Shown one piece after another: positions 41,129 to 48,049 of a stretch of 64,000 bases of DNA. Position 1 is the stretch's first letter, and every line of letters starts with the position of its first letter. Origin of the DNA: Bacteroidetes bacterium OLB11 (GTDB taxonomy: Bacteria > Bacteroidota > Bacteroidia > Chitinophagales > Chitinophagaceae); contig LNFQ01000044.1 in the NCBI GenBank assembly GCA_001567165.1, forward strand, positions 1 through 64,000. Reading direction: 5' to 3'. Below the pieces are notes generated by a model that saw only the letters and a list, made by a program, of their open reading frames with translations, was not told where the DNA came from and ran no database searches. Made by a program: the position numbers and the translations under genes.

Positions 41129-42364
41129 TTAAAGCTTTTCTAACGCTTGTTGAATATCACTGATAATATCTTCGTCATTTTCTACTCCTATCGAAAGGCG
41201 TATCATTTTTTCGGTAATATGAAATTTCTCTTTGTCCTCTTTGCTTACGTCACAGTGAGTCATTGCGGCGGGGTGTTCAGCTAAGCTTTCTGTGCTTCCT
41301 AAGCTGACAGCTAGTTTGATTAATTTGAGAGAATTGAGAAAAAGAAATGCTTCCCGTTCTCCACCTTTCACATCAAATGAAATCATTGCTCCATTTGTTA
41401 AACATTGTTTTTCTTTAATTGCAAATTGGATATCTTCTTCTTTTATATTTCCAATATAATAAACCTTTTCTACTTTAGGATGGCTGGATAAAAAAGCAGC
41501 AACTTGAGAGGCATTTTTAGCTTGCAAATCCATTCGAGCTTTTAGCGTTTCTAGGCTTCGTAATAAGAGCCAACCAGTATGAGGGCTTGCCATATTTCCT
41601 AAAAAAGTCCTCATCCCTTTCACTCTTTGCATCAGTTCTTTTGAGCCTAAGCAAGCACCTGCAATCAAATCACTATGCCCACCGATATATTTTGTGGCGG
41701 AGTATAACACTAAATCGGCACCATGCTTTAATGGATGTTGCCAGAGTGGTCCCATGTATGTATTGTCAACAGCGAGAGGGATGGTTTTTTCTGGACTTGA
41801 AAATTGCAATGCAATTTCTTTTATAGCTTCAATATCAATCAAATCGTTTGTTGGGTTTGCCGGAGTTTCAATATAGATTAATGCAATTTTTGCAGCTAAG
41901 CCACTGTTTTCAACAAGTAGAGCCACTTCTTCTTTGCTCTGTCCTGCCCCAAATTCTAATACTTGAATATTAAATTTAGGTAATATTTTTTTTATGAAAT
42001 GATCGCTACCTCCATACAAAGGATTGCTTATTAAAATAACATCATTGGGTTTTAAAAATTCTAATAAAACAGTAGTGATGGCTGCCATTCCACTTTCAAA
42101 CACTGCACAGTCTTCCGCTTTGTCCCATAAGCATAAACGGTTTTCCAAAATTTCTAAATCAGGGTTGTTAATCCGACTGTATATCAACCCGAGTTCTTCA
42201 TTCTCCTTTTTTTCTCGATGCCCATAAGCAATTTCAAAAAAGGCTTTTCCTTCTTCTGCATTTTTAAATACAAAGGTTGAGGTCATAAAAATAGGGCACT
42301 TAATCGCACCCTCTGATAACTCAGGCTTGAAGCCGTAAGACATCATTAAACTTTCTGGTTTCAT
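41129..42364 (-). CDS. PLP-dependent trans-sulfuration enzyme (cystathionine/methionine gamma-lyase family)
   Basis: The 411-residue protein is a Cys/Met metabolism PLP enzyme. It has PLP-binding motifs AVFESGMAAITT, IALIYIETPANPTN and the Schiff-base lysine in LYSATKYIGGHSDLIAG. The SLGSTESLAEHPAAMTH motif near the C-terminus and RLSIGVENDEDIISD complete the pattern. Specificity (cystathionine gamma-synthase, gamma-lyase or methionine gamma-lyase) cannot be decided from motifs; the insert EIAYGHREKKENEELGLIYS in the N-terminal part fits the 'cystathionine gamma-synthase family' subgroup seen in Bacteroidota. Confidence 0.87.
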   Translation of the reverse strand: MKPESLMMSYGFKPELSEGAIKCPIFMTSTFVFKNAEEGKAFFEIAYGHREKKENEELGLIYSRINNPDLEILENRLCLWDKAEDCAVFESGMAAITTVLLEFLKPNDVILISNPLYGGSDHFIKKILPKFNIQVLEFGAGQSKEEVALLVENSGLAAKIALIYIETPANPTNDLIDIEAIKEIALQFSSPEKTIPLAVDNTYMGPLWQHPLKHGADLVLYSATKYIGGHSDLIAGACLGSKELMQRVKGMRTFLGNMASPHTGWLLLRSLETLKARMDLQAKNASQVAAFLSSHPKVEKVYYIGNIKEEDIQFAIKEKQCLTNGAMISFDVKGGEREAFLFLNSLKLIKLAVSLGSTESLAEHPAAMTHCDVSKEDKEKFHITEKMIRLSIGVENDEDIISDIQQALEKL

Positions 42365-42504
42365 AAAAATAGAAATTAGGTTTCTTTAGCTGTAAAGTTA
42401 CTTGATTTTGTATGACAATCACTATTTATATGTTATAATCTTTTTTAGAAAGGAGCCAATCTAATCGTGACATGAAGGTTCTATTTAAAATAAATACAAG
42501 AAAA

Positions 42505-42524
42505 AAAAGTACTTTAATACTTTT
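42505..42524. promoter_or_regulatory. inverted repeat, candidate operator of the RIC gene
   Basis: AAAAGTA and TACTTTT frame a 6-base spacer. The 3' arm ends 17 bases upstream of the -7 element, in the position where a repressor would block RNA polymerase. A Rrf2-type regulator is encoded 4 kb downstream, which makes this a candidate operator. The AT-rich composition means chance is not excluded. Confidence 0.35.
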
Positions 42525-42541
42525 ATATTTAAAGCTATCCT

Positions 42542-42549
42542 TATCTTTG
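42542..42549 (+). promoter_or_regulatory. -7 promoter element of the RIC gene
   Basis: TATCTTTG matches TAnnTTTG 28 bases before the ATG at 42578. A recognisable -33 TTTG is not seen; the inverted repeat overlaps that region. Confidence 0.5.
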
Positions 42550-42577: not shown

Positions 42578-43792
42578 ATGGAACCAATACAAGAAATCAT
42601 CATTAATGTGCAAGAAATTGAACCAAAGTATAGACATAATACTATCTTTGAAACATTTGACAAGCTTAAAGAAGGCGAATACTTAATTATTCATAATAAC
42701 CATGATCCTCAACCGGTATATTATCAACTTCAACAGATTAGAGGAGAAGTGTTTAAATGGGAATATTTGCAACAAGGTCCTGAATGGTGGGATATTAAGT
42801 TGAGCAAAAAATATTTACATGAACATAATATTCCGATTACCATTATTGATAACGATTTTGTCATTAATGTTCCAGAAATTGAACCTCGTTTAAAACATGC
42901 AACCATTTTTCAAGTATTTGATAGCTTAGCTCCGGGAGAAAGCCTGATTATCCATAATGACCACGACCCTAAACCGGTGTATTACCAATTGCTCAGCGAA
43001 AGAGGCGATATTTTCACTTGGGAATATTTAGAACAAGGCCCGCAATGGTGGGATATTCAAGTGACTATAAAAGGGGAAGATGAGAAAGAAACCATTGGAC
43101 AAATAGCAGCAAAAGATTTAAGAAAAGCAGAAGTATTTAAAAAACACGGAATCGATTTTTGTTGTGGAGGAAAAAAAACAGTGAAACAAGCATGTGAAGA
43201 AAAAGGAATTGATGTGATAAAATTAGAGCAAGAGCTTCTGCAAGCCGCTACTACAGTGACTCACGGGAATGCAAATTATAATGATTGGAATATTGATTTC
43301 TTAGCTGATTTTATCGTCAATACGCATCATAATTACGTAAGAAAATATCTCCCTGAAATAAAAGCCTATGCTACTAAAGTCGCCCAAGTGCATGGAGCAA
43401 ATCATCCTGAATTAAAATCGATTCTTGAAAATGTGCTTGAAATGAGCGAAGATTTGACTGAGCATATTGAGTATGAAGAAAAACAATTATTTCCTTTGAT
43501 TAAGAAAATTGCAAATGCAAAAACCAATGATGTTCCTTACACCCCTCAAGCAAATGAAAAATTTGAAATCGTTGTGAAAGATGCCGAAAATGAACACGAA
43601 GCTGTCGGTCAACAATTGGTTGAAATACGCACACTGAGCAAAGATTATGCAACACCAGAAGACGCTTGTGCAAGTTACAAATTACTTTACAAAATGCTAG
43701 ATGAATTTGAAAATGATTTGCATATTCATATCCATCTTGAAAACAATATTTTATTTCCTAAAACAATTGAAATAGAAAAATCTTTGGCTTAA
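42578..43792 (+). CDS. ric: RIC (ScdA/YtfE) di-iron Fe-S repair protein with two DUF2249 domains
   Basis: Two tandem DUF2249 modules (about residues 7-80 and 93-165) share LIIHNNHDP/LIIHNDHDP, PVYYQL and the ending QGPEWWDI/QGPQWWDI. An ScdA_N domain with GIDFCCGG follows (about 205). The C-terminus is a hemerythrin-like di-iron domain: NTHHNYVRKYLPE, LTEHIEYEEKQLFP, then NEHEAVG and HIHIHLENNILFP. RIC proteins repair iron-sulfur clusters damaged by nitric oxide or oxidants. The double DUF2249 fusion (404 residues) is longer than the usual 220-240 residue RIC. It has its own terminator, but the following genes carry related domains. Confidence 0.92.
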   Translation: MEPIQEIIINVQEIEPKYRHNTIFETFDKLKEGEYLIIHNNHDPQPVYYQLQQIRGEVFKWEYLQQGPEWWDIKLSKKYLHEHNIPITIIDNDFVINVPEIEPRLKHATIFQVFDSLAPGESLIIHNDHDPKPVYYQLLSERGDIFTWEYLEQGPQWWDIQVTIKGEDEKETIGQIAAKDLRKAEVFKKHGIDFCCGGKKTVKQACEEKGIDVIKLEQELLQAATTVTHGNANYNDWNIDFLADFIVNTHHNYVRKYLPEIKAYATKVAQVHGANHPELKSILENVLEMSEDLTEHIEYEEKQLFPLIKKIANAKTNDVPYTPQANEKFEIVVKDAENEHEAVGQQLVEIRTLSKDYATPEDACASYKLLYKMLDEFENDLHIHIHLENNILFPKTIEIEKSLA

Positions 43793-43804
43793 TTTCGAAT
43801 CATT

Positions 43805-43843
43805 CTTTAAGGCACTTTTCATTATTTATAAAGTGCCTTAAAG
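43805..43843 (+). terminator. hairpin terminator after ric
   Basis: A 14-bp perfect stem (43805-43818 with 43830-43843), 11-base loop, followed by TTATTTT. It lies 13 bases after the ric stop. It could allow partial read-through into the next genes. Confidence 0.72.
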
Positions 43844-43897
43844 TTATTTTAAAAATAAAATCTGATAAAAACTATTTTAAATAAAATCAATTGTAGC

Positions 43898-44725
43898 ATG
43901 TTAATTAACGAGCAAACTAAAATTTCTACTCTCTTAAAACATAATGCAGATTCTTTAGAGGCACTTATTACATTGAGTAGTGATTTTAAAAAACTAAGAA
44001 ATCCTTTGTTAAGAAAAATTATGGCAAGTAGAACAACGATTTCTATGGCATCGAAAATTGGGAAGTGCACACCAGAAGATTTTTATAGAGTGTTGAAGCC
44101 ATTGGGGTTTGTGCATGATACCGATCCTGTAGATACACAAGAAGATATTGCACCTCAAAAACCAATGCCCGATTATTTGAAACAAGTCGATAAAGGATTG
44201 ATAATCGAATTGGATGTGCGTGCAATGTTGGCTGAAGGAAATGACCCACTAAGACTGATTCAACAAAAAGTGAAAGTCTTAAATGAAGGGGAGGTTCTGA
44301 AAATCATCAATACTTTTGAACCAACTCCACTTATTATGCTATTAGCAAAACAGGGTTTTCAATCTTTTGTGAATGAAATTTCAAAAGATGAAATTGAAAC
44401 CTATTTTTATAAAATTGATAACGCAACGAAAGTTCAACTGAATGAAGATAGCGGCACCTCCAGCGATTGGGATAATATTTTTGAACAATATTCAAATCAA
44501 TTAGTAGAAATTGATGTGCGACATTTAGAAATGCCCATGCCGATGATGACTATTTTAGAAACCTTGGAAACACTACCTCAAGACAAGGCATTGTATGTGC
44601 ATCATAAACGAATTCCCGTTTTTTTATTGACAGAACTCAAAGATCGAAATTTTGAATATCGGATTAAAGAAGTTCAAGAAGGAGAAGTGTATCTGTTGAT
44701 TTTTCATAACGGGTTTATTTCTTAA
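43898..44725 (+). CDS. DUF1858-DUF2249 protein
   Basis: The 275-residue protein has an N-terminal DUF1858-like helical domain (STLLKHNADSLEALITLS, then RNPLLRKIMASRTTISMASK). Two DUF2249 modules follow, at about 105-170 (IIELDVRAMLAEGNDPLRLI, KIINTFEPTPLIMLLAKQGF) and about 205-275 (LVEIDVRHLEMPMPMMTILE, VHHKRIPVFLLTEL). No Fe-S ligand pattern is evident. It is likely a partner or regulator of the RIC protein in nitrosative stress. Three bases separate its stop from the membrane-protein gene, suggesting translational coupling. Confidence 0.78.
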   Translation: MLINEQTKISTLLKHNADSLEALITLSSDFKKLRNPLLRKIMASRTTISMASKIGKCTPEDFYRVLKPLGFVHDTDPVDTQEDIAPQKPMPDYLKQVDKGLIIELDVRAMLAEGNDPLRLIQQKVKVLNEGEVLKIINTFEPTPLIMLLAKQGFQSFVNEISKDEIETYFYKIDNATKVQLNEDSGTSSDWDNIFEQYSNQLVEIDVRHLEMPMPMMTILETLETLPQDKALYVHHKRIPVFLLTELKDRNFEYRIKEVQEGEVYLLIFHNGFIS

Positions 44726-44728
44726 AAA

Positions 44729-46024
44729 ATGAATTTATTATCAGGAAACGGATTGCAACAAACGACAAATTACAGAGTCGTGTTTTGCCTTTTTATATTT
44801 ATGCTGCTTTTGCATTTTTTTTTAGGGAGTCTTCTGCTGCTTATTCACTCTGATATTTATGATATTAAAACGCACTATTTTCATCCCTACACATTAACCA
44901 TCGTGCATACGATGGCGTTAGGCTGGGCTACGATGATCATTTTTGGGGCATCTCATCAGCTATTGCCTGTGTTGATTGAGGGTAAATTAGATAGTAATCT
45001 ATTGGCCTATTTGACTTTTGGTTTTACATCAATTGGGATACCATTTATAGCTTATGCCTTTTATAATTGGCAAGTGGGTTTCCCTATGAAAATAGGTGCA
45101 GTGCTAATCAACTTAGGAGTTATCTGTTATCTAGTTAATATCATCAGTAGTATTTATTATAGCACTAAAAAAAGATGTACACACGTGGTATATTTTTGCG
45201 GCATCTATTTGGCTTTTTTTCAACAACGTTTTTTTGGTCTATTATTAGTTTTCAATTTTTCATACCCATTATTGCCTGATAATTCATTGGACTATCTCAC
45301 ACTTCATTCACACTTAGGCATTATCGGATGGTTTTTGCTATTAGTGATAGGAGTTGGTTCTCGGCTCATTCCCATGTTTTTGATTTCAAAATATACGAAT
45401 GTAAAACAGTTATGGATTATCTTCACACTTGTCAATATTAGCTTACTAAGTTTTATTGTTTTGAGAATATTGCAGTTTGAATCAGTCTATTATTTTATTT
45501 CAATATTTCTATCATTACTTGCTATCGTTTTTTTTGTTCAATACTGCTTGCGAGCATACAAAGTGCGTATTCGAAAATCAGTCGATGAGCAAATGAAAAT
45601 TTCATTATTATCTGTGTTGTTGATGTTAGCACCATTGCTTGTTTTATTAATTGTATTGCTGATGATACCAGTTGATAAAAATTATAACATGGCAACGCTT
45701 TACGGTTTCTGTATTTTCTTTGGATGGCTTACAGCTATTATATTAGGCATGACTTTTAAAACGCTGCCATTTATAGTTTGGAATAAAGTATATCGACGAA
45801 TTTCACATGCTGGCAAAACACCGGTTCCTAAAGATTTATTTAAAGAATCTATTTTTAATTGGATGGCGATTACATATATCTTCGGATTTATTATTTTCGT
45901 TTTAGGACTTGTTTTTTCGATTAGTATAATTTTAAAAATTGGAGCATTTTCATTATTTGCTTCTTCAATACTCTATATCTTAAATGTAATAATTATTTTA
46001 ACACACCAATCCAAAGTATCATGA
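44729..46024 (+). CDS. NnrS / heme-copper-oxidase-subunit-I-like membrane protein
   Basis: This polytopic membrane protein of 431 residues has about twelve helices. The first conserved helix has IVHTMALGWATMIIFGASHQ. A second conserved histidine is in LTLHSHLGIIGWFLLLVIGV, and GSRLIPMFLISKY follows. These resemble the heme-ligand histidines in NnrS-type and cbb3-related proteins that respond to nitric oxide; the exact subfamily is uncertain. The stop overlaps the SufT-like start by 4 bases. Together with RIC and DUF2249 genes, a role in NO handling is the leading hypothesis. Confidence 0.65.
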   Translation: MNLLSGNGLQQTTNYRVVFCLFIFMLLLHFFLGSLLLLIHSDIYDIKTHYFHPYTLTIVHTMALGWATMIIFGASHQLLPVLIEGKLDSNLLAYLTFGFTSIGIPFIAYAFYNWQVGFPMKIGAVLINLGVICYLVNIISSIYYSTKKRCTHVVYFCGIYLAFFQQRFFGLLLVFNFSYPLLPDNSLDYLTLHSHLGIIGWFLLLVIGVGSRLIPMFLISKYTNVKQLWIIFTLVNISLLSFIVLRILQFESVYYFISIFLSLLAIVFFVQYCLRAYKVRIRKSVDEQMKISLLSVLLMLAPLLVLLIVLLMIPVDKNYNMATLYGFCIFFGWLTAIILGMTFKTLPFIVWNKVYRRISHAGKTPVPKDLFKESIFNWMAITYIFGFIIFVLGLVFSISIILKIGAFSLFASSILYILNVIIILTHQSKVS

Positions 46025-46344
46025 ATGAAATAACAAACGACAACATCAAATGCAACATTGCACTCACTGCTTTATATGATGTGATAGACCCGGAAATTGG
46101 GCTGAACGTAGTGGATTTAGGATTGATTTATGAAATCAATTTTGACGAAACAGCTCAACGAATTAAAACCGATATGACTTTGACAACACAATTTTGTCCA
46201 ATGGGCGATAGTATTGTAGGAAATGTCACACAGTCATTACAAGACGCATTTCCAGCATGGGAAATTGTAGTGAATCTCACCTTTGACCCGCCATGGAATT
46301 ATTCGAGAATTTCACCTGATGGTCAAGAATTTTTAGGGAGATAA
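46021..46344 (+). CDS. SufT-like metal-sulfur cluster assembly factor (DUF59/MIP18)
   Basis: The 107-residue protein has the MIP18/DUF59 fold: ALYDVIDPEIGLNVVDLGLIYEI, LTLTTQFCPMGDSIVGNV with the conserved Cys, and VNLTFDPPWNYSRISPDG near the end. Relatives (SufT, PaaD) aid maturation or transfer of Fe-S clusters. It overlaps the preceding membrane protein by 4 bases and is 3 bases before the Rrf2 gene, clearly in one operon. Confidence 0.88.
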   Translation: MNEITNDNIKCNIALTALYDVIDPEIGLNVVDLGLIYEINFDETAQRIKTDMTLTTQFCPMGDSIVGNVTQSLQDAFPAWEIVVNLTFDPPWNYSRISPDGQEFLGR

Positions 46345-46347
46345 GCT

Positions 46348-46743
46348 ATGTTAAGTAATACATGTAAAACAGCAATAAAGGCAGTTGTATATTTGTCAAG
46401 TAAAGGAGTAGATGGTGAAAAAGTAGGGATTAAAGAAATTGCAGAGCAAATTAATGCCAGCGAACATACTATTGGCAAAATACTGCAAACACTCGTCCGG
46501 CAAAGAATTATCAATAGTACAAAAGGGCCTACTGGTGGTTTTTATATTGACAAAAAACAATTAACTCAACCTATTTTGAAAATTGTAGAAACGATAGAAG
46601 GGAAAGATATTTTTCAAGAATGTGGGCTAGGTTTGAGCAAGTGTTCAGCATTGCATCCATGTCCTATTCATAATGAATATAAAGTGGCAAGGGAGATGAT
46701 TGAAAAGATATTTAGGGAGAAAAAAAATAAAAGATCTTTGTGA
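46348..46743 (+). CDS. Rrf2-family regulator, NsrR-like
   Basis: The 131-residue protein has a winged-helix Rrf2 domain (IKEIAEQINASEHTIGKILQTLVRQRIINSTKG in the DNA-binding part). The C-terminal third has three cysteines in ECGLGLSKCSALHPCPIHNEY, with spacing CX6CX5C, the arrangement of Fe-S-binding Rrf2 sensors such as NsrR and IscR. An NO-sensing role over this operon is the natural guess, because RIC, DUF2249 and NnrS-like genes precede it. The genes are spaced 3 bases apart, so it is probably autoregulated. Confidence 0.85.
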   Translation: MLSNTCKTAIKAVVYLSSKGVDGEKVGIKEIAEQINASEHTIGKILQTLVRQRIINSTKGPTGGFYIDKKQLTQPILKIVETIEGKDIFQECGLGLSKCSALHPCPIHNEYKVAREMIEKIFREKKNKRSL

Positions 46744-46768
46744 TAATGTAGCCAATGGAATTGCTTAT

Positions 46769-48049
46769 TTAATTGGATAGTTTCTTGTAAGTATTGAATT
46801 TATAAGTAATAAAAAGAACGGTTATAATATAAGAAACTACACTTGACCATGCAGCCCCTTCAATGCTATATTTTGGAATTAAAATCGCATTTAAAATCAA
46901 GCAAACGACAAAGCCAATCAAGGAACCATATAAGTTAAATTCGATTTTTTTTATTCCTGCAAAGTAAGCACTGATACCAAAACTATACACAAAAGGAATA
47001 ATACCTATAATTAAAATTTTAATAATTTGAATACTCCTCGAAAATGCTTCTCCAAATAAAATTGGAATCAAATAAATCGAAATAAGATAGCCACCAATAC
47101 CAACAATCAATGCATATAATAAAGCCCAATTACTCACCCTTTTTGTTTTGGAAACTTTATCCTGCATTGCGTTTTCGTTAGATGAAACATAAGTATAAAG
47201 CACTGCTTGCACAGCATTTGGAAGCAACCACACGAGCTGAGCTAGGCTAACACCTAAGGAATAAATACCAATTAAATTAGAGTCATTTTGAAAATAATTT
47301 AAAAACCAAATATCCATTTTGTAGTTTAAAAACTGAATAATATTTGCCATATAAGTCAAAGCAGAAAAGGCAATCATCGGCTTAACATCATTGAAAGAAA
47401 TAGATAAAAATTTCAAATAAAATGGATTCGTATTTCGGATATGAATGAAGTAGAAAATGTATTGAATCATCGCAACCAAGAGCATAGATCCAACCACCCA
47501 AAATAAAGGCTCAATATTTGAAGAAACGAAGTTGAAAAATTTCAAGCTATATAAGAACAAAAGAGCCAGACTTCCAATGATGGTAATATATCCCGACTTA
47601 CTAAATTTATTTTCTGCAATTAAAATCGATTGTAAATATTGATTCATGCTCATCATCGATAATTGCATAAACATTACAAATGTCCAAGTGTAATTTGATT
47701 GAATAAAGTGAGGTAAAAACACTTGAATAAACTGTAAGTATCCACCAAGAATATAAAATAAAATCAGAATAGAAAACGAAACAAGTGTCACACTAAACAT
47801 GATTGGAATTGCCTTTTGAACATTCATCTTTTTGCTTGCTAAAAAATAGACAAATGCAGAAGGAATACCAAGTCCGCTAATTAATAATACAACTGCGATG
47901 AATGTATTATACAATGCGAGGTCGCCTTGCCCAAATGTCCCCAAGATTCGAGCCGTCATAATCATACAGAGAAGATTGCTGATAGTCGAAATGACTTGAG
48001 TAGAATGATTGATGATTATATTTTTTCGAAACAATGACACAAGTATCAA
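46769..48049 (-). CDS. polysaccharide flippase (MATE/MurJ-like oligosaccharide exporter)
   Basis: This protein of 426 residues has about twelve to fourteen transmembrane helices and the lipid-linked-oligosaccharide flippase pattern: ILGTFGQGDLALYNTF near residue 36, GLGIPSAFVYFLASKKM, and IYSLGVSLAQLVWLLPNAVQ. Such proteins move undecaprenyl-linked sugars across the inner membrane. No glycosyltransferase genes are next to it, which is unusual for a cluster gene. It is divergent from the deoxynucleoside kinase gene. Confidence 0.87.
   Translation of the reverse strand: MILVSLFRKNIIINHSTQVISTISNLLCMIMTARILGTFGQGDLALYNTFIAVVLLISGLGIPSAFVYFLASKKMNVQKAIPIMFSVTLVSFSILILFYILGGYLQFIQVFLPHFIQSNYTWTFVMFMQLSMMSMNQYLQSILIAENKFSKSGYITIIGSLALLFLYSLKFFNFVSSNIEPLFWVVGSMLLVAMIQYIFYFIHIRNTNPFYLKFLSISFNDVKPMIAFSALTYMANIIQFLNYKMDIWFLNYFQNDSNLIGIYSLGVSLAQLVWLLPNAVQAVLYTYVSSNENAMQDKVSKTKRVSNWALLYALIVGIGGYLISIYLIPILFGEAFSRSIQIIKILIIGIIPFVYSFGISAYFAGIKKIEFNLYGSLIGFVVCLILNAILIPKYSIEGAAWSSVVSYIITVLFITYKFNTYKKLSN

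Follow-up and report, generated by a model that had tools for sequence, protein, structure and literature searches.

A conserved RIC-DrpB-HCOH-MIP18-Rrf2 operon of Bacteroidota as a probable accessory to denitrification and nitrogen-oxide stress

The DUF2249 proteins DrpA and DrpB have been described in Thermus, where drpA and drpB mutants lose the nitrate-dependent control of the nar and dnr promoters, and where drpAB double mutants exhibit little nitrate reductase activity though the enzyme subunits are made (PMC6282519). DrpB was found to be cytoplasmic and partly membrane-bound, and the drp genes were characterised in an organism that respires nitrate only (PMC6282519). These data support both a role in control and a role in obtaining active nitrate reductase (PMC6282519). 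In denitrifying Haloferax, DUF2249 genes are induced by 3.2-8.7 log2 (PMC11218638). Here, a related five-gene locus is described in a Bacteroidetes bacterium, OLB11, within positions 1 to 64,000 of contig LNFQ01000044.1 (this whole stretch of 64,000 nucleotides is referred to as the window). Its genes encode, in order, a RIC-type di-iron protein with DUF2249 repeats, a DrpB-type protein, a homologue of heme-copper oxidases (HCOH), a MIP18-family assembly factor and an Rrf2-family regulator. Sequence comparison suggests that the locus is probably an autoregulated accessory operon for denitrification and for stress by nitric oxide (NO) and nitrite.

The five adjacent open reading frames (ORFs) lie on the forward strand (Table 1) and are separated by 105, 3, -4 and 3 bases, and Pfam assigns two DUF2249 domains each to genes 1 and 2. 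ORF coordinates and Pfam thus agree with a first-pass annotation of this DNA, which had reported five same-strand neighbours with four DUF2249 domains and gaps of 3 bases or a 4-base overlap between the last four genes. As both flanking genes are located on the opposite strand, the five genes form a closed unit. Its start is the promoter and operator near 42503, upstream of the extent previously assigned. The two flanking genes are not nar genes; nar elsewhere in the genome was not searched for.

The gene order was followed in 147 genomes of the window's family and in 38 further loci from named Bacteroidota genomes. Gene 2 is present in 34 of the 147, and the order RIC-DrpB-HCOH-MIP18-Rrf2 is kept in nearly all family loci as well as in the 38 additional ones; a few loci of the Sphingobacterium type have no RIC or just its DUF2249 part. 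The trio DrpB-HCOH-MIP18 is kept in essentially all full-length loci of a phylum sample, which come from several families, and its distribution extends from Bacteroidota to Thermus and in part to Alphaproteobacteria. The Thermus plasmid pTTJL1801 exhibits the arrangement nar operon-DrpA-DrpB-hypothetical protein-protoglobin-HCOH-MIP18, and a nos cluster of Mesorhizobium holds an HCOH protein, DUF2249 proteins, DUF1858, Rrf2 and MIP18. The first-pass annotation had proposed a self-contained module and a search for its gene order in other Bacteroidota; the order does recur, the neighbourhood is conserved and an operator precedes the first gene, so that the notion of a module with its own regulator holds.

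The suggested connection to nitrogen oxides is likewise borne out, by both co-occurrence and neighbourhood. The genome of the window (2.19 Mb, 92% complete) carries nirK, a nosZDFY-type cluster and norC-norB on contigs C13, C20 and C24 (loci L075, L074 and L176), which is consistent with a host that reduces nitrite to N2. Within the family, nosZ was found in 31 of the 34 genomes with gene 2 and in 45 of the 113 without it; the corresponding counts are 19/34 and 6/113 for nirK or nirK-like genes, and 18/34 and 21/113 for nitric oxide reductase (NOR). In the phylum sample, nosZ accompanies full-length DrpB in 18 of 19 genomes, as compared to 98 of 336 without it (p=1e-8), and the association is also seen when any DrpB match is counted (32/38 vs 84/317). 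A search for NirS, which had no positive control, found nothing. In many genomes the operon is located 3-8 kb from nosZ, and nirK or norB are also nearby in relatives. Several of these possess a single island consisting of nosZ...nosY, the operon, a hemerythrin gene, norB and norC. A qNorB gene lies near the Rrf2 end in L079, and a nirK-like gene is found close to the operon in L076, L077 and L086.

A 24-bp palindrome upstream of gene 1 is probably bound by the Rrf2 protein that the operon itself encodes, as predicted from the recurrence of this palindrome in relatives. Its consensus upstream of the first gene is ATAAAAGTACTTnAATACTTTTAT, and about 29 of the 49 upstream regions of relatives contain the dyad AAGTA-N6-TACTT, with a maximum of 5 in shuffled sequences. 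In 23 of 29 operator sites, the Bacteroidota-type -7 box TAnnTTTG follows 14-17 bases past the operator core (as compared with about 1.7% of shuffled sequences across a similar range). Since the box stands at this distance, the palindrome appears to cover the -33 region, as would be expected for the site of a repressor. Among 17 genomes, nearly all have their strongest palindrome site before this operon. In a pattern search of the window's own genome and 16 relatives, sites with one or two mismatches were no more frequent than in a reversed-pattern control, and a wide Rrf2 regulon was consequently rejected in favor of a single strong site. A second exact match in the own genome falls within, or next to, genes of the cytochrome oxidase subunit III type. 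In genome G141, where the operon begins with a nirK-like gene, the palindrome stands before that gene. In place of the usual palindrome, AAAAGAC-N6-GTCTTTT or a similar sequence is found in L082 and L087 and, with a poorer match, in L088. As the Rrf2 protein of L082 is also divergent, these very few cases suggest that regulator and operator co-evolved. The gap between genes 1 and 2 contains a further element, a hairpin with a predicted RNA folding energy of -18.4 kcal/mol (z = -3.4 against dinucleotide shuffles). Hairpins of other sequence occupy the same gap in 16 of 34 relatives and perhaps serve the unequal expression of the RIC and drpB parts; a scanner that permits short loops only found no intrinsic terminator there.

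Gene 1 is classed as RIC by the curated cut-off, as it scores 233 bits against TIGR03652 (equivalog cut-off 204.7). Pfam detects PF10006 twice, PF04405 (ScdA_N) and PF01814 (hemerythrin). Alignment to ScdA (9r7j, E=7.5e-33) reveals the DFCCGG motif and the conserved di-iron His/Glu positions, which are also shared with YtfE (5fnn). The function of such proteins is debated: repair by the E. coli RIC has been called into question, with an NO-generating nitrite reductase activity proposed in its place (PMC9052748), and for ScdA, repair versus nitrite reduction to NO is likewise at issue (PMC12412097). The RIC proteins of relatives carry 1 to 5 DUF2249 repeats, nearly all with the motif [DN]HDPxP. 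Proteins with 3 to 5 repeats were observed in L058, L037, L060, L031 and others, and the number varies even among related genomes. Thermus DrpA (MELDVRAIPPRERHPKIFGVFDALAPGESFVLVNDHDPKPLYYQ...) shares this motif, the DrpA-type domain being represented by NDHDPKPLYYQ, and in loci L165-L171, from other Bacteroidota families, a small standalone gene for a DrpA-type DUF2249 domain directly precedes drpB. For these two reasons the RIC of the window would represent a fusion of DrpA and RIC. Just after Rrf2 or nearby, an additional gene often encodes a protein of about 250 aa with two or three divergent DUF2249 repeats.

The protein encoded by gene 2 finds its best plasmid matches among Thermus DUF2249 proteins (33.5% identity over 99% of its length). 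As in Thermus, it is preceded by a DrpA-type DUF2249, here fused to RIC; unlike Thermus drpB, it does not follow a nar operon. The occurrence of DUF2249 in two genes had been taken to suggest a shared ligand or partner; the matches to DrpA and DrpB support the view that the domains of both genes are related parts of one system. An AlphaFold2 model of the protein (mean predicted local distance difference test score, pLDDT, 90; predicted template-modeling score 0.46, with uncertain domain packing) resembles TusA/SirA-fold chains and, in its DUF1858 part, 2fi0. The Foldseek E-values are weak (0.007 and above), and the root-mean-square deviations are about 2 Å across single domains. Since the position of the catalytic Cys of TusA holds Asp, Glu or Met, the DUF2249 domains are not expected to act as TusA-type sulfurtransferases. 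The idea of a sulfur supply for the CuZ center of NosZ, prompted by the nosZ link and the TusA fold, was set aside because this Cys is absent and the nitrate-only Thermus also has the core.

Pfam gave no match for gene 3 alone. However, a profile built from 54 relatives aligns with CcoN, a subunit of the cbb3 oxidase (8smr_E, E=2e-7), H60 falling on a His of the HxH heme-ligand motif of CcoN, and Pfam COX1 matches 25 of the 54. The best PDB matches of its AlphaFold2 model (pLDDT 88.8) in Foldseek are NOR and cbb3 or other oxidases (E ~1e-5, TM-score 0.6-0.76). H60 and H193 are the sole invariant histidines, and no His is present in the helix equivalent to transmembrane helix 10. By profile and model, gene 3 is hence a homologue with the heme-copper oxidase fold and two conserved His. 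As six heme- and metal-binding His would be needed, a catalytic oxidase or NO reductase is excluded. Homologues are encoded on the Thermus plasmid, between the protoglobin and MIP18 genes (E=3e-27), and beside the Mesorhizobium nos cluster, there as a membrane protein (E=2e-22). Families of heme-copper oxidase homology, among which gene 3 fits, were reportedly described by Pei and co-workers in 2014, a work cited in the Haloferax study (PMC11218638). Near nos or operon islands, L083, L084, L085, L081, L078, L080 and L086 encode a second membrane protein, which is polytopic, about 420 aa long and marked by the motif AHSHFAFGGW. It looks like another oxidase-type relative; homology to HCOH, considered for this gene (c12) of the nos-linked relatives, was rejected by hhalign.

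Several labels of the first-pass annotation require revision. Of its name “NnrS/heme-copper-like” for gene 3, the heme-copper part stands and the NnrS part falls: PF05940 does not match the window protein and only weakly matches 3 of the 54 relatives, and hhalign to Mesorhizobium NnrS gave a probability of 0.5%. Gene 4, termed SufT-like, scores below both the SufT (TIGR03406; 74.3 vs 202.6 bits) and the SUF_assoc equivalog cut-offs and is assigned to the PF01883 superfamily only. The supposedly NsrR-like gene 5 is equally remote from the curated families (NsrR, 23.6 vs 182 bits; IscR, 34.8 vs 207.6 bits). An orthologue alignment shows its C92, C99, C105 and H108 as an IscR-like Cys3-His set with a different spacing (6-5-2). 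Lys7 presumably occupies the position equivalent to Asp8 of NsrR, by a hand alignment to the NsrR start, and the three cysteines are invariant. Asp8 of NsrR has been named as a ligand of its cluster (PMC5411485). The ORF of gene 5 as read stops at 46743, because a run of eight A residues shifts the frame relative to all orthologues. Nearly every orthologue continues with a tail like ...KIKDLCDPVTNGLAYLMD, and the orthologous frame (KIKDLCDNVANGIAYLIG) is intact downstream. Since this tail is kept in another frame after the run, the early end probably reflects either a recent mutation or an error of sequencing or assembly.

Table 1. Features of the locus and of related loci. Positions refer to the window unless a locus is named.
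Feature	Position	Strand	Description
Operator	42503..42526	+	24-bp palindrome AAAAAAGTACTTTAATACTTTTAT; core AAAAGTA-N6-TACTTTT at 42505-42524
-7 box	42542..42549	+	Bacteroidota-type TATCTTTG (TAnnTTTG)
Gene 1	42578..43792	+	(DUF2249)2-ScdA_N-hemerythrin; RIC/YtfE/ScdA-type di-iron protein with two N-terminal DrpA-type DUF2249
Hairpin	43805..43843	+	14-bp perfect hairpin in the 105-base gap between genes 1 and 2
Gene 2	43898..44725	+	DrpB-type, DUF1858-DUF2249-DUF2249 (Pfam), 275 aa
Gene 3	44729..46024	+	Heme-copper-oxidase superfamily membrane protein (HCOH), two invariant His (H60, H193)
Gene 4	46021..46344	+	Short MIP18/PF01883 Fe-S (metal-sulfur cluster) assembly factor; PF01883 1.5e-11
Gene 5	46348..46780	+	Rrf2-family regulator, Rrf2 1.1e-20; invariant C92, C99, C105, H108; frame broken at A8 run (ORF as read 46348-46743)
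A8 run	46720..46727		Frameshift relative to orthologues; affected stretch 46717-46780, to the end of the orthologous stop
Flanking gene	41129..42364	-	
Flanking gene	46769..48049	-	
~250 aa DUF2249 protein	L033 12906-13664; L047 12927-13688; L048 12907-13659; L034 9720-10481; others		Two or three divergent DUF2249 repeats
Protoglobin-domain gene	L071 10235-11074		Between drpB and the HCOH gene of the Thermus drp region

In the proposed mechanism, the intact Rrf2 protein would bind an Fe-S cluster and repress the operon by covering the -33 region. Damage to this cluster by NO or nitrite, or its loss, would release repression, and the RIC di-iron protein would then handle nitrite, NO or iron chemistry in the cytoplasm. 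The DrpA-type repeats of RIC, together with DrpB, would act as partner domains of TusA fold without sulfurtransferase activity and link RIC to the heme-binding HCOH in the membrane and to MIP18. The joint effect might be that enzymes with metal cofactors stay functional during the production or respiration of NO and N2O. A set of observations weighs against this assignment to denitrification and NO/nitrite stress. The repair role of RIC is contested (PMC9052748), the contig of the operon carries none of the genome's nirK, nor or nos genes, and 98 of 116 nosZ genomes have no full-length DrpB. In addition, the congeneric genome G082 possesses nirK and norB but not the operon, and the co-occurrence tests ignore phylogeny, that is, shared ancestry. 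At the phylum level, moreover, DrpB does not track nirK (5/19 vs 64/336, p=0.39). Hence DrpB does not simply accompany NirK and its production of NO, an idea that holds in the window's family and fails in the phylum sample.

A more specific proposal, which we put forward tentatively and with less confidence than the accessory role itself, is that DrpB, HCOH and MIP18 form one membrane-linked machine that protects or matures the metal enzymes of nitrogen-oxide respiration. DUF2249 would then be a Cys-less module of TusA fold for docking or for a small ligand, and in Bacteroidota the machine would have gained the RIC fusion and a dedicated Fe-S switch. A purely sensory system appears rather unlikely by comparison. 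In such a system, DrpA-type domains, DrpB and a heme-bearing HCOH would sense nitrate, nitrite or NO and tune denitrification genes, and RIC would be an extra module that senses or produces a signal. The lost nar and dnr control of the Thermus mutants and the partial membrane attachment of cytoplasmic DrpB (PMC6282519) favor this idea, as does the proposed formation of NO from nitrite by E. coli RIC (PMC9052748). However, the Rrf2 operator is local, with no wider regulon above the reversed-pattern control, DrpB is without a DNA-binding domain and a MIP18 factor is hard to fit into a pure sensor.

That DrpB, HCOH and MIP18 help to load metal-sulfur or heme cofactors into respiratory nitrogen-oxide reductases seems improbable. 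The MIP18-family gene does belong to the invariant core, DUF2249 has the TusA fold, co-occurrence with nosZ is near-exclusive in Bacteroidota, and the Thermus double mutants make nitrate reductase subunits with little activity (PMC6282519). Yet the replaced catalytic Cys makes sulfur transfer unlikely, most nosZ genomes are without full-length DrpB, and the Thermus work concerned a nitrate-only respirer (PMC6282519). A general operon for Fe-S, iron or oxidative stress, unspecific to nitrogen oxides, is very unlikely: the IscR-like Cys3-His pattern, the MIP18 factor and the response of RIC proteins to oxidative stress as well (PMC9268430) would agree with it, but the nosZ association is strong, nos, nirK and nor lie in the neighbourhood and suf or isc genes were not noticed among recurrent neighbours. 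Chance adjacency of unrelated genes, to which only the 105-base gap after gene 1 could point, is refuted by a gene order that dozens of genomes in several families have in common and by the shared operator.

Every component type of the operon is already known, the DrpA/DrpB pair has been published for Thermus and the link between DUF2249 and heme-copper oxidases is cited in the literature. In the literature searched, which left out most subscription journals, neither the complete operon of Bacteroidota nor the fusion of DrpA to RIC, MIP18 as a core member or the operator was found to be described. DUF2249 proteins, DrpB and the heme-copper oxidase homologues are widespread among denitrifiers and have almost no assigned function. 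In the locus they are united with an already known di-iron protein, a factor for cluster assembly, a candidate sensor and a probable operator, so that their function becomes directly testable in cultured hosts. Cultured relatives that carry the operon include Sphingobacterium sp. SGG-5 and Arachidicoccus ginsenosidivorans (loci L038 and L049). Since Bacteroidota with clade II nosZ count as sinks of N2O and DrpB tracks nosZ, such an accessory system is also of interest for N2O control.

Compared with the known systems, the locus is closest to the drp region of Thermus (PMC6282519; pTTJL1801), with which it shares a DrpB of the architecture DUF1858-DUF2249-DUF2249 and a DrpA-type domain, followed in order by HCOH and MIP18. 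It differs by carrying two copies of the DrpA-type domain, both as part of RIC, by having an additional Rrf2 gene with its operator and by lacking a neighbouring nar operon; in Thermus, a hypothetical and a protoglobin gene are interposed. With RIC, YtfE, ScdA and DnrN (TIGR03652), gene 1 shares an ScdA_N domain with DFCCGG, the hemerythrin di-iron domain and a score above the equivalog cut-off; the additional N-terminal DUF2249 repeats set the Bacteroidota proteins apart. Gene 3 has the heme-copper oxidase fold, the two invariant His and the DUF2249 association in common with HCOH proteins including NnrS (Pei et al., 2014, as cited in PMC11218638), but it forms a distinct family without detectable relation to NnrS and without a Pfam model that matches the window protein. 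As in NsrR and IscR, the regulator exhibits an Rrf2 fold and three Cys, with a His at the fourth ligand position as in IscR; its Cys spacing of 6 and 5 and its scores far below both equivalog cut-offs are different. In passages of the work on the NsrR, DNR and HcpR regulons, the published NsrR motif is gATGyAT-N5-ATrCATc, as opposed to AAAAGTA-N6-TACTTTT in the window (PMC1274295). These passages likewise tie an Rrf2 or Crp regulator to dnrN (RIC), nnrS, hcp, nir and nor, while they do not mention the DrpB-HCOH-MIP18 core, which in the present locus is placed under one local operator (PMC1274295).

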